From contig DASPKU010000002.1 in the NCBI GenBank assembly GCA_035627955.1, forward strand, positions 86,277 to 150,276: 64,000 nt of DNA, read 5' to 3'. Shown here piece by piece: positions 21,672 through 56,673 of the stretch (position 1 is its first letter; each line of letters starts with the position of its first letter). A model generated the notes under the pieces. It saw nothing but the letters and a program-made list of their open reading frames with translations. It did no database searches and was not told the origin of the DNA. The DNA is from Phycisphaerales bacterium (GTDB lineage: Bacteria > Planctomycetota > Phycisphaerae > Phycisphaerales > UBA1924). Both the position numbers and the translations under genes were made by a program.

Positions 21672-22197
21672 CGTTCGGAACGAGCCCCGAACGAAGTGAG
21701 CGGGCGGTGCTGCCCGCGTCGCCGGTTCTCGCGAGGACCCGTCACTGCGTTCCGGGCTCGTACGAACGGGCAGGGTGCGCACGGGCGGGCAGGAGGTTCA
21801 TCAGCGCAAAAGTCGTTCGGAACGAGCCCCGAACGGAGTGAGCGGGCGGTGCTGCCCGCGTCGGCGGGTTACACGGAGGACCCGTCACTGCGTTCCGGGC
21901 TCGTATGAACGGGCAGGGTGCGCACGGGCGGGCAGGGGGTTGATCAGCTCAAAAGTCGTTCGGAACGAGCCCCGAACGGAGTGAGCGGGTGGTGCAGCCC
22001 TTGTCGCCGGTTTCTCGGAGGACCCGTCACTCCGTTTCCGGGCTCGTATGAACGGGCAGGGTGGGCACGGACGGGCAGGGTACATGTTGACGCGAGAGAC
22101 GTTCGGAACGAGCCCCGAACGAAGTGAGCGGGCGGTGCAGCCCGCGTCGCCGGTTTCTCCGGAGGACCCGTCACTTCGTTCCGGGCTCGTATGAACG
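21672..22197 (+). repeat. Upstream REP array of the RAYT gene: four ~98-bp palindromic units
   Basis: Units at 21672-21768, 21814-21911, 21957-22054 and 22100-22197. Each starts CGTTCGGAACGAGCCCCGAA, continues with a GTGAGCGGG arm, has a ~30-base centre, and ends with CCCGTCACT, CGTTCCGGGCTCGT and GAACG, so the two ends form a long imperfect stem. Units are separated by exactly 45 bases and repeat with a 142-143 base period; the separators are themselves related (GGCAGGGTG-GCACGGGCGGGCAGG). The 609-base region before the transposase start holds no other gene. Confidence 0.92.
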
Positions 22198-22261
22198 GGC
22201 AGGGTGGGCACGGGCGGGCAGGGTGCGCAAGGGCGGGCAGGGTGTCTGTACAGTTTCTGCC

Positions 22262-22927
22262 ATGTCCCTCCCGCTCGCGTACTTCCTCACATGGGCGTGC
22301 TATGGCCAGCGGCTGCACGGTGATGAGCGCGGCACGGTTGACCGCGAGCACAATCGGCGCGGCTCTCCGATGCTCGCACCGGACCCGAGGCGGGTGGCCC
22401 GCGAGCGCGCGGTGATGAACGGACCGCCGGTGACACTCTCGGCAGCGATGCGGGCCGTCGTCGAGGATGCGATCCCACAGCTGTGCGAAGAGCGGGGCTG
22501 GCGGCTGATCACGCAGAGCGTGCGCACCACGCACGTCCATGTGGTCGTGAACTGCCGTGGCTCGCACTCGCCGGAACGAGCAATGGCGCAGTTCAATGCG
22601 AGGCTGACGCGCGAGCTGCGGCGCGCCGATCTCGCGGGCGAGGATCAGCACCTGTGGGCGGAGCACGGCAGTACGCGCTGGATCAACGATTACGCGGGGC
22701 TGTACGGGGCCATCGCGTACGTCAACGACTGGCAGACAGGTCCGAACCGCGAGATGCTCGAGGAGCACCGGCGGGCGACGCGGGCGCACATTGAGTCGCT
22801 GAAGGCGTGGCTGCGCGAACAGGGACTGCCGGAGGACGGCAGCACTGTGGTGGTGGGTGAGAGCATGGAAGAGCGGCATGCGCGCGTGAACCCGGAAGTC
22901 GTTCGGAACGAGCCCCGAACGGAGTGA
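22262..22927 (+). mobile_element. REP-associated tyrosine transposase (RAYT), IS200-like Y1 family
   Basis: A 221-residue HUH single-strand transposase. The N-terminus LAYFLTWACYGQRLHGDERG with VDREHN is typical of this planctomycete-type group. The metal-binding HUH is HVHVV at residues 91-95, and the likely catalytic tyrosine is Tyr153 in AIAYVNDWQ, inferred by position. The ATG at 22262 is used because upstream sequence in the frame is translated repeat. The last codons (VVRNEPRTE) and the stop are supplied by the first downstream repeat unit. It is flanked by four and three units of the palindrome it presumably acts on. RAYTs are usually single-copy domesticated transposases that spread or maintain REP elements. 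Confidence 0.9.
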
Positions 22928-23257
22928 GCGGGCGGTGCTGCCCTGGTCGCCGGTTTCTCGGAGGACCCGTCACTTCGTTCCGGGCTCGTATGAACGGGCA
23001 GGGTGGGCACGGGCGAGTGAGGTGCTTTTCGATGCGAGCGACGTTCGGAACGAGCCCCGAACGAAGTGAGTGGGCGGTGCAGCCCGCGTCGCCGGTTCAG
23101 GCAAGGACCCGTCACTGCGTTCCGGGCTCGTTACGAACGGGCACCGTGCGCACAGAAGACGTTCGGAACGAGCCCCGAACGGAGTGAGCGGGGGGTGCAG
23201 CCCGCGTCGCTGGTTTCTCGGAGGACCCGTCACTTCGTTCCGGGCTCGTCGCGAACG
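22900..23257 (+). repeat. Downstream REP array of the RAYT gene: three units
   Basis: Units at 22900-22996, 23042-23139 and 23160-23257 in the same orientation as the upstream array. The first two are 45 bases apart, the last two only 20. The first unit overlaps the 3' end of the transposase gene. The 346-base region up to the next gene holds nothing else. Confidence 0.9.
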
Positions 23258-26115: not shown

Positions 26116-26336
26116 CGTTCGGAACGAGCCCGGAACGCAGTGACGGGTTCTCAGGATGATCGGCGACGAAGGCGGCACGGCCCGCTCACTTCGTTCGGGG
26201 CTCGTTACGAACGACGCGCCTGCAGGGAGCGCCAGCGCCGTTCGGTACGAGCCCGGAACGCAGTGACGGGTCCTCAGGATGATCGGCGACGAAGGCGGCA
26301 CTGCCCGCTCACTTCGTTCGGGGCTCGTTACGAACG
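26116..26336 (-). repeat. Two REP units in reverse orientation
   Basis: Units at 26116-26213 and 26239-26336, 25 bases apart. They read GAGCCCGGAACGCAGTGACGGG, a GAT-rich centre, then CCCGCTCACTTCGTTCGGGG and CTCGT-GAACG, that is, the reverse complement layout of the units beside the transposase. They fill most of the gap after ispE; the remaining bases are the leader of the next gene. Confidence 0.88.
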
Positions 26337-32507: not shown

Positions 32508-32629
32508 CGTTGGGAACGAGCCCCGACGCGTCTTCGCGCGGCGTCCGCCCACGCAGTGAGCGGGCAGTGCTGCCCTGCGCGCAGGGTCCGCGCGAGAACC
32601 CGTCACTTCGTTCCGGGCTCGTATGAACG
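32508..32629 (+). repeat. REP unit with a ~25-bp internal insertion
   Basis: This 122-bp unit has the usual ends (GTTGGGAACGAGCCCC and CCCGTCACTTCGTTCCGGGC with TATGAACG) but carries an extra GC-rich segment near 32526-32550 (CGCGTCTTCGCGCGGCG) in the left arm. Confidence 0.8.
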
Positions 32630-48063: not shown

Positions 48064-48284
48064 CGTTGGGTACGAGCCCGGAACGCAGTGACGGGTCCTC
48101 TTCGGGGCCGGCGACGAGGGCAGCACCGCCCGCTCACTTCGTTCGGGGCTCGTTACGAACGACGCGCTGGGGGCGAGCGCCTGAACCGTTCGGTACGAGC
48201 CCGGAACGCAGTGACGGGTCCTCGGGGTGATCGGTGACGAGGGCAGCACCGCCCGCTCACTTCGTTCGGGGCTCGTTGCGAACG
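48064..48284 (-). repeat. Two REP units in reverse orientation
   Basis: Units at 48064-48161 and 48187-48284, separated by 25 bases, in the same reverse layout and with the same spacing as the pair at 26116-26336 (GAGCCCGGAACGCAGTGACG ... CCCGCTCACTTCGTTCGGGG). Confidence 0.88.
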
Positions 48285-52861: not shown

Positions 52862-52955
52862 GTGAACAAGCCCGGAACGCAGTGACGGGTCTGTGGGCGG
52901 AGCGGCGTCGAAGGTGGCACGGCCCGCTCACTGCGTTCGGGGCTCGTACCGAACG
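52862..52955 (-). repeat. REP unit between mlaD- and mlaF-like genes
   Basis: One reverse-orientation unit (CAAGCCCGGAACGCAGTGAC ... GCCCGCTCACTGCGTTCGGG) fills the 127-base gap inside a likely operon. Its left tip is degenerate. Confidence 0.82.
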
Positions 52956-56574: not shown

Positions 56575-56673
56575 CGTTGGGAACGAGCCCGAAACGCAGT
56601 GACGGGTCCTCCGGTCAACCTTGCACGCAGGGCTGCCCGGCCCGCTCACTTCGTTCGGGGCTCGTTACGAACG
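56575..56673 (-). repeat. REP unit
   Basis: One reverse-orientation unit (GAGCCCGAAACGCAGTGACG ... CCCGCTCACTTCGTTCGGGG) between the SRPBCC start and the frameshifted O-methyltransferase stop. Confidence 0.85.

Follow-up and report, generated by a model that had tools for sequence, protein, structure and literature searches.

A class 3-type TnpAY1 transposase gene inside an array of paired hairpin repeats in a Phycisphaerales genome

The window analysed here, a stretch of 64,000 nucleotides of Phycisphaerales DNA, contains a gene for a HUH-Y1 single-strand transposase that is surrounded by seven copies of a REPIN-like repeat. By the published description of motifs, hairpins and hosts, the protein fits the rare class 3 of TnpAY1 and is not a classical RAYT. 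The locus is very probably a class 3 TnpAY1 'REPtron', in which a single-copy HUH-Y1 endonuclease gene lies inside an array of non-autonomous elements that are recognised by its product. Such a system is of a known but little-studied kind, the class having been published in 2018; what is new is a sharper picture of the substrate and a stronger tie between protein and repeat. The evidence is computational and consists of the fold of the protein, its catalytic residues, the covariation of the hairpins, their copy number, and the association of the protein with the repeat.

The gene is an open ATG reading frame of 221 codons on the forward strand (22262 to 22927), encoding the HVHVV motif and Y153, with H91-V-H93, W132 and Q158 as further marks. 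The array spans positions 21672 to 23257, with four units upstream and three downstream of the gene, all in the same orientation and each forming a palindrome of about 97 bp. On the forward strand, unit 1 (arm A followed by arm B) occupies 21672 to 21768, unit 2 occupies 21814 to 21911, unit 3, with one extra T in arm B, occupies 21957 to 22054, and unit 4 occupies 22100 to 22197; these four form a tandem with a period of 143 bp. Unit 5 (22900 to 22996, forward) overlaps the 3' end of the gene, the last codons and the TGA stop of which fall within it, and it is followed downstream by unit 6 (23042 to 23139, forward) and unit 7 (23160 to 23257, forward). The first-pass annotation had described a 221-residue HVHVV protein between four and three palindromes of the same orientation, ending at 23257, and the coordinates of the reading frame and of the units bear this out. 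The longest frame at this place has 267 amino acids and begins with GTG at 22124; its start codon lies inside a repeat, and it is unlikely to mark the true start. Longest frames that begin inside repeats, here and at 26140, are a likely source of wrong start annotation.

The same palindrome had been taken as dispersed and multi-copy, and further members of the family do occur in the window, on the reverse strand: two units opposite in orientation to the array at 26124 to 26328 (arms 26124 to 26205 and 26247 to 26328), a single arm B at 32602 to 32622, two units at 48072 to 48276 (arms 48072 to 48153 and 48195 to 48276), and one unit each at 52866 to 52947 and 56583 to 56665. Searches of the window with the two arm patterns, at most three mismatches being allowed, gave 26 matches each, whereas dinucleotide shuffles averaged 0.04 and 0.02.

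The repeat unit consists of two hairpins of about 22 nt that face each other, typically with 42 nt between them. From the (C)GAG foot, each hairpin continues with three or four C-rich stem pairs and a tandem G-A/G-A step, followed by two inner pairs that carry a GNA loop. The two ends are unequal, arm A being CGTTCGnnACGAGCCCCGAACGNAGTGAGCGGG and arm B being ACGAGCCCGGAACGNAGTGACGGG with a less conserved lead. A single long palindrome was rejected as the unit, because the arms are separate hairpins that stand alone in 22 of 65 units. Thus, of the palindrome of about 98 bp with arms of about 31 bp that had been proposed, the palindrome is real (about 97 bp), but the unit is two facing hairpins and not just one stem; its length is no novelty either, since it arises from a REPIN-like pair of short hairpins. 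The foot of the window hairpin reads ACGA, which appears to differ from the published class 3 foot CnGA; feet that would match CnGA (CCGA or CAGA) are present in 13 of the 31 GNNA loci among relatives. The hexamer CGTTCG precedes 54 of 65 A arms versus 20 of 41 B arms. It was considered as a general upstream guide pairing with CGAACG, and this was rejected because, in the C8 subfamily described below, only 1 of 11 arms is preceded by it.

Across the 23 contigs (4.26 Mb) of the host's own genome, the arm pattern was found 51 times in forward and 51 times in reverse orientation, and its reversed control never. The stretches that were fetched hold at least 108 arms, collected with at most two substitutions and grouped into 65 units; these lie at 55 places, and the home array takes up two of them. 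Of 109 arm matches, one was left out of the catalogue as a likely chance match. This catalogue is not exhaustive, and a further pair with four-base loops lies outside the fetched stretches (C1:174009 and C1:174075). Head-to-head pairs account for 43 of the 65 units, and the other 22 are single arms. Among the paired units, 36 are A+B, six are A+A and one has two atypical arms; the gap is 42 nt in 18 of the 43. The arms are near-invariant at most positions genome-wide, within the limit of two substitutions at which they were collected. When genes are predicted from codon usage with a simple model, which scores 80% of this DNA as coding, all but two of the 65 units fall outside them. The window gene is present in one full copy, accompanied by two divergent class 3 paralogues, one of them broken, and the genome has eight other PF01797 matches. 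The broken paralogue, at G000:C17:22040-22540, is interrupted by stops.

The assignment of the protein relies on profile matches, a structural model and conserved motifs. It scores 28.2 bits against Pfam Y1_Tnp (cut-off 23) and 26.9 bits against NCBIfam IS200, which is below the cut-off of 55. Its AlphaFold model (pLDDT 86.4) is closest to ISDra2 TnpA, IS608 TnpA and the RAYT–REP hairpin structure 4er8 (E values from 2e-5 to 8e-5); this fold and the Pfam match uphold the Y1/HUH identity that had been read from the sequence. H91, H93, W132, Y153 and Q158 are found in every row of a 19-row alignment of the window protein and 18 relatives, and H91, H93 and Y153 are retained in 128 of 131 class 3-like loci. 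The 2018 article that defined class 3 started with a handful of proteins, a set then extended to 24, and located the hairpins by manual inspection; it lists Y----Q, W[TA], NHVH and a longer N-terminal core as marks of the class, Planctomycetes, Acidobacteria and Proteobacteria as its hosts, and several atypical, weaker-structured flanking hairpins with a 5' foot CnGA, multi-copy in the genome (PMC6006769). It relates Y----Q to class 1, and its authors leave the origin and behaviour of class 3 open (PMC6006769).

In the window protein the tyrosine motif is YVNDWQ (Y153-VNDW-Q158), which has the Y----Q form of class 3 and agrees with the consensus YV[VI][AENY]EQ at Y, V and Q only. W[TA] is represented by W132-A133, and HVH is present with Thr replacing the Asn of the published NHVH. 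Conservation from Y7 to Q158, matching an extended N-terminal core, was seen with the 18 relatives, which were retrieved with the window protein and not with the published class 3 profile of 155 amino acids. The class 2 RAYT motif Y---NP is absent from the protein and the GT[AG]G foot is absent from the repeat, where the consensus upstream of the stem is CGTTCGnnACGAG; the strict label of RAYT, given to the protein in the first-pass annotation, was therefore abandoned. Judged by record title, the 80 best named relatives comprise 57 from Planctomycetota (31 of them from Phycisphaerae and below), 17 from Acidobacteria, with five or fewer Bryobacterales records, and six others. The impression of a planctomycete-like genome proved sound, a relative of the same family (G002) being Phycisphaerae bacterium HBSAPP03. 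Residue 112 is Asn in the window protein and Lys in the other 130 of the 131 class 3-like loci, and the end branch of the window protein in the tree of these loci has a length of 0.84 against a median of 0.45, although it was not flagged as long. Because of these two features and the IS200 score below cut-off, the activity of the protein is uncertain, and the window copy may be altered or losing activity.

Protein and repeat had at first been tied by linkage. The linkage stands, and the tie now rests on more than that, namely on the hairpin subfamilies of paralogues, on covariation and on an association with copy number across genomes. The intact class 3 paralogue of the same genome (C8:9464-9940) is 43–46% identical to the window protein and is flanked on both sides by hairpins of a G-C subfamily (C8:9418 and C8:10023), whereas the window array belongs to an A-T subfamily. 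The sequence of the C8 subfamily, GAGCCCCGAGCGTNAGCGAG, has 18 matches genome-wide with at most two mismatches, and the window-type match listed on the contig of this paralogue is 70 kb away from it. Among the class 3 genes seen, only the window gene has the window subfamily on both sides.

Covariation was assessed by a search of the sequences in hand in which one inner stem pair was left free on both sides. Outside the own genome, the freed pair was Watson–Crick in 126 of 128 matches (48 of 201 loci), comprising 109 C-G, 11 G-C and 6 A-T pairs, and the remaining two were T-G and G-T. In the own-genome stretches it was Watson–Crick in 106 of 108 matches (95 A-T and 11 G-C). This search was relied on instead of an earlier covariation table, the 11 hairpins of which had been chosen partly for their pairing.

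Across the phylum, a class 3 gene (match at E<=1e-8) is present in 40 of 294 genomes. At least five tandem-GA hairpins of a generic pattern were found in 16 of these 40 genomes versus 3 of the 254 without the gene (p=5e-13), where the threshold of five copies was chosen after the counts were seen and the counts lack independence, as family f30 supplies 12 of the 16 positive genomes. Counted by family, the same level is reached in 5 of 11 with class 3 versus 3 of 81 without (p=4e-4). Family f30 has 14 genomes with the gene, 12 of which reach five copies, and two genomes without it, each having a single copy (p=0.05). The three hairpin-positive genomes without a class 3 gene are 77–86% complete. 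At least one match occurs in 64 of the 294 genomes, and many of these are single and near the control level of 0–2. A weaker association is seen when the comparison is confined to the 61 nearest genomes (11 of 22 with class 3 versus 7 of 39 without, p=0.018), where the seven positive ones lacking a strong class 3 match carry 5–61 hairpins each.

The first-pass annotation had also raised the case of repeats equally common in related genomes. Instead, the window-type repeat has 108 matches in its own genome, 1–4 in four of 60 relatives and none in the other 56, so that the subfamily is nearly private to its own genome among the genomes searched. Lineage-specificity and dependence on the protein are not fully separable in this comparison, because the searched relatives are all outside the genus.

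Hairpins also accompany the relatives of the window gene. Among 71 named class 3-like loci, which are the best 80 named less nine duplicates and form a later set, separate from a first set of 54, repeated segments lie within 650 nt of the gene in 63; hairpins were called automatically in 35, of which 31 are GNNA, and 36 had no call. In the first set, a caller rescored with a bonus for tandem G-A steps and none for loops, a rescoring made after the data were seen, found a hairpin in 35 of 54 loci, 28 of them with a GN(N)A loop on one strand, and gave no call in 19. It superseded a first caller that was blind to G-A steps; under that caller, 13 of the 31 loci with a called hairpin had GNNA or GNA loops. 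A repeated segment was not found at 3 of 57 class 3-like loci (L090, L148 and L155). Control Y1 loci had a hairpin in 13 of 27 cases, with no GNNA tetraloop among the 13 and GNA triloops in six. For this reason, the GN(N)A loop was given up as a feature that would tell class 3 from other Y1 loci, and the GNA triloop of the window has no diagnostic value on its own. Six loci (L076–L080 and L082) form a well-supported sister clade; their hairpins, read from the GAG foot, have TCCC in three of six, and the rest have TCCA, CCCC or three-base loops. Judging from these loops, loop type may follow the protein clade.

Compared with known systems, the window system combines features of several. REPINs are paired inverted REPs, described in Pseudomonas fluorescens. 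The window units likewise have two facing REP-like hairpins that form one long hairpin and are dispersed as a unit, but they differ in the class of hairpin, in having two non-equivalent ends, and in being paired in 43 of 65 cases. With the class 2 RAYT/TnpAREP systems, the window shares the HUH-Y1 fold (4er8), a single gene amid its own repeats, dispersed intergenic copies and a separate repeat family for each paralogue. The class 2 marks Y---NP, WQ and the GT[AG]G foot are missing, and the window hairpin differs from class 2 REPs in its tandem GA and GNA cap. The TnpA proteins of IS200/IS605 elements (IS608 and ISDra2) have in common with the window protein the fold, HUH, a Tyr followed by Gln, and hairpin recognition, which is predicted for the window. 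Unlike them, the window system has many gene-less units, and a whole mobile element was not seen; near-identical copies of gene and ends, a trait of IS200/IS605, were not found in the own genome, where the intact paralogue is the divergent one described above.

The closest likeness is to class 3 as described by Quentin et al. in 2018, which has Y----Q, W[TA], HVH, the longer N-terminal core, hosts among Planctomycetes and Acidobacteria, several atypical hairpins and a high genomic copy number in common with the window system (PMC6006769). In addition to the apparent difference in the foot, the hairpins are termed atypical and weaker in that description, whereas those of the window follow a defined grammar within a paired, two-ended unit (PMC6006769). 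The TIRYT genes and TIRtrons of Di Nocera et al. (2013) also combine RAYT-like genes with non-GTAG inverted repeats, some of which are described as self-complementary and multi-copy; the window repeats differ in being paired hairpins in arrays, next to a class 3-like protein (PMC3733652). According to the 2018 classification, 20 of 26 TIRYTs fall into subclass 2.1 (PMC6006769).

By analogy with better-known Y1 enzymes, we infer that the window protein would bind and cleave the hairpins, transfer strands and mobilise the units. Hairpin binding and cleavage by IS608 and TnpAREP are reported as established for those families (PMC8266576). When an element becomes single-stranded, on the lagging strand or during repair, the protein would bind its hairpin through the capped loop and the irregular stem. 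Tyr153 would then cut beside the foot and form a 5'-phosphotyrosine, with a metal held by H91, H93 and Q158, and the rejoining of ends elsewhere would spread units into intergenic DNA and lengthen the home array. The home array, the dispersed intergenic copies, the two unlike ends and the specificity of the subfamilies fit this proposed sequence of binding, cutting and rejoining. The putative substrate is clear and testable: it is a short hairpin that contains a G-A step and, in most of the called cases, a GN(N)A cap, and that covaries and differs between paralogues; whether the enzyme mobilises the repeats thus becomes a simple oligonucleotide question.

Other explanations of the locus have to be weighed against the class 3 REPtron. 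The palindromes could be transcription terminators or mRNA-stability hairpins, their array at the gene being accidental or regulatory. This is very improbable: the location of 63 of 65 units outside predicted genes and the strong folding of the seven array units as RNA (-54 to -65 kcal/mol) would agree with it, but each of the two paralogues of one genome has a separate hairpin subfamily, and copy number goes with the class 3 gene across the phylum, in genomes that are partly kin. Moreover, the frequency of repeats (63 of 71) and of hairpins (35 of 71) at class 3-like loci contrasts with 40 other placements in the window, only three of which had a repeated hairpin, two being the window family itself. 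An ordinary insertion sequence of the IS200/IS605 type, moving whole and leaving several copies of its ends around, is quite improbable. The genome holds one full copy of the gene with two divergent paralogues, one of them broken; 53 further places, distant from the gene, carry hairpins, and the gene is flanked by four plus three unit pairs instead of single left and right ends. What speaks for such an element is the shared fold and the Y----Q motif, which the 2018 article ties to class 1 (PMC6006769), and the fact that genes of relatives are bounded by inverted hairpins and inserted into host genes together with them.

It is unlikely, if less so, that the gene is a relic, in decay or put to another use, and that the units spread earlier or through another Y1 enzyme of the same genome. 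Asn112 in place of Lys, the end branch above the median and the eight other PF01797 matches point in that direction. Against it, the catalytic H, H, Y and Q are intact in an open frame, the arms are near-invariant at most positions (subject to the substitution limit of their collection), and the window subfamily flanks both sides of this class 3 gene only, among those seen.

Several relatives of the window protein sit in open reading frames of about 1300 amino acids, which are valyl-tRNA synthetases with an in-frame transposase. These nested synthetases would be the part of the results likely to surprise specialists. The insertion point in ValS lies between ...ALRAM..QR and L.F.P.RYAKT...ISRQLWWGH. 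Among the 61 relatives, class 3 occupies this loop in G002, G036, G043, G044 and G047, and Y---NP transposases occupy the same loop in G007, G015, G016, G024, G039 and G051. A Y1 transposase lies in LeuS, between WIGRSEGAE and TTRPDTxFGATY, in G008, G011, G024, G028 and G033, so both synthetases of G024 are occupied. Within the single genus g40, the ValS loop holds class 3 in G043 and G047 and the Y---NP type in G039, and the ValS match of G055 has no such gap. Among the matches listed, the ValS search gave one locus over the family cut-off per nested genome, except for G047, where ValS is split over two contigs; partial matches below the cut-off are probably IleS.

Among the 131 class 3-like loci, 13 are in ValS (L170–L174, L198, L200, L201, L204, L205, L209, L210 and L267), 12 in AlaS (L202, L203, L206–L208, L212, L213, L216, L218, L219, L223 and L225) and eight more in long frames, in a sample that over-represents nested cases since three rows of its query alignment (A2), the lead row included, are themselves nested in ValS. 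Y1 genes of other types, Y---NP in most, are found in LeuS (L161, L162, L164, L169 and L176) and in the ValS loop used by class 3 (L163, L165, L166, L167, L182 and L185). ValS- or AlaS-type Pfam domains were found in 12 of 15 long frames; ten of these 12 also match Y1_Tnp, and the class 3 match of the remaining two was obtained with tblastn. The residues H, H and Y are kept, with no stop, in all 25 ValS and AlaS nested cases, and the residues of the ValS signatures HxGH and MSK do not vary among 21 versions, nested and empty ones together. In many of these loci class 3 is flanked by hairpin-encoded peptides such as TSRDREGA and PLPHGRGS, and a model of one nested ValS (pLDDT 72.5, pTM 0.57) has a confident transposase core between low-confidence hairpin-encoded linkers. 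On the tree, nested and free states change at least nine times with low support, and well-supported branches force only one or two changes per label.

We lean slightly towards reading these cases as an intein-like life without splicing, in which Y1 transposases would repeatedly insert in frame at recurring permissive loops of synthetase genes that are essential (ValS and AlaS for class 3, ValS and LeuS for the Y---NP types). Their own hairpins would encode the linkers, and one polypeptide would combine a working synthetase with a working HUH endonuclease, so that loss of the element would be difficult. Short REPs inside tRNA-synthetase genes have been reported before (PMC3733652), and literature searches, mostly at the level of titles, found no earlier report of a whole transposase there. 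If confirmed at the protein level, residence in synthetases would be a new way for a bacterial transposase to persist, and the nested transposases would account for some of the excessively long frames of ValS, AlaS and LeuS in these genomes.

The own-genome ValS (L181, C11 at about 39803) contains no transposase; at the same loop it has a 105-aa stretch with short tandem repeats in frame. One AlaS frame (L213) seems to contain two Y1 domains, a Pfam match at 334–392 and class 3 at 1001–1154. Class 3 also occurs in frame, with hairpin-encoded linkers, in a gene judged by eye to be methylase-like (L175 in G342), in an N6_Mtase/Type_ISP_C gene (L215) and in a DUF1156 gene (L220).
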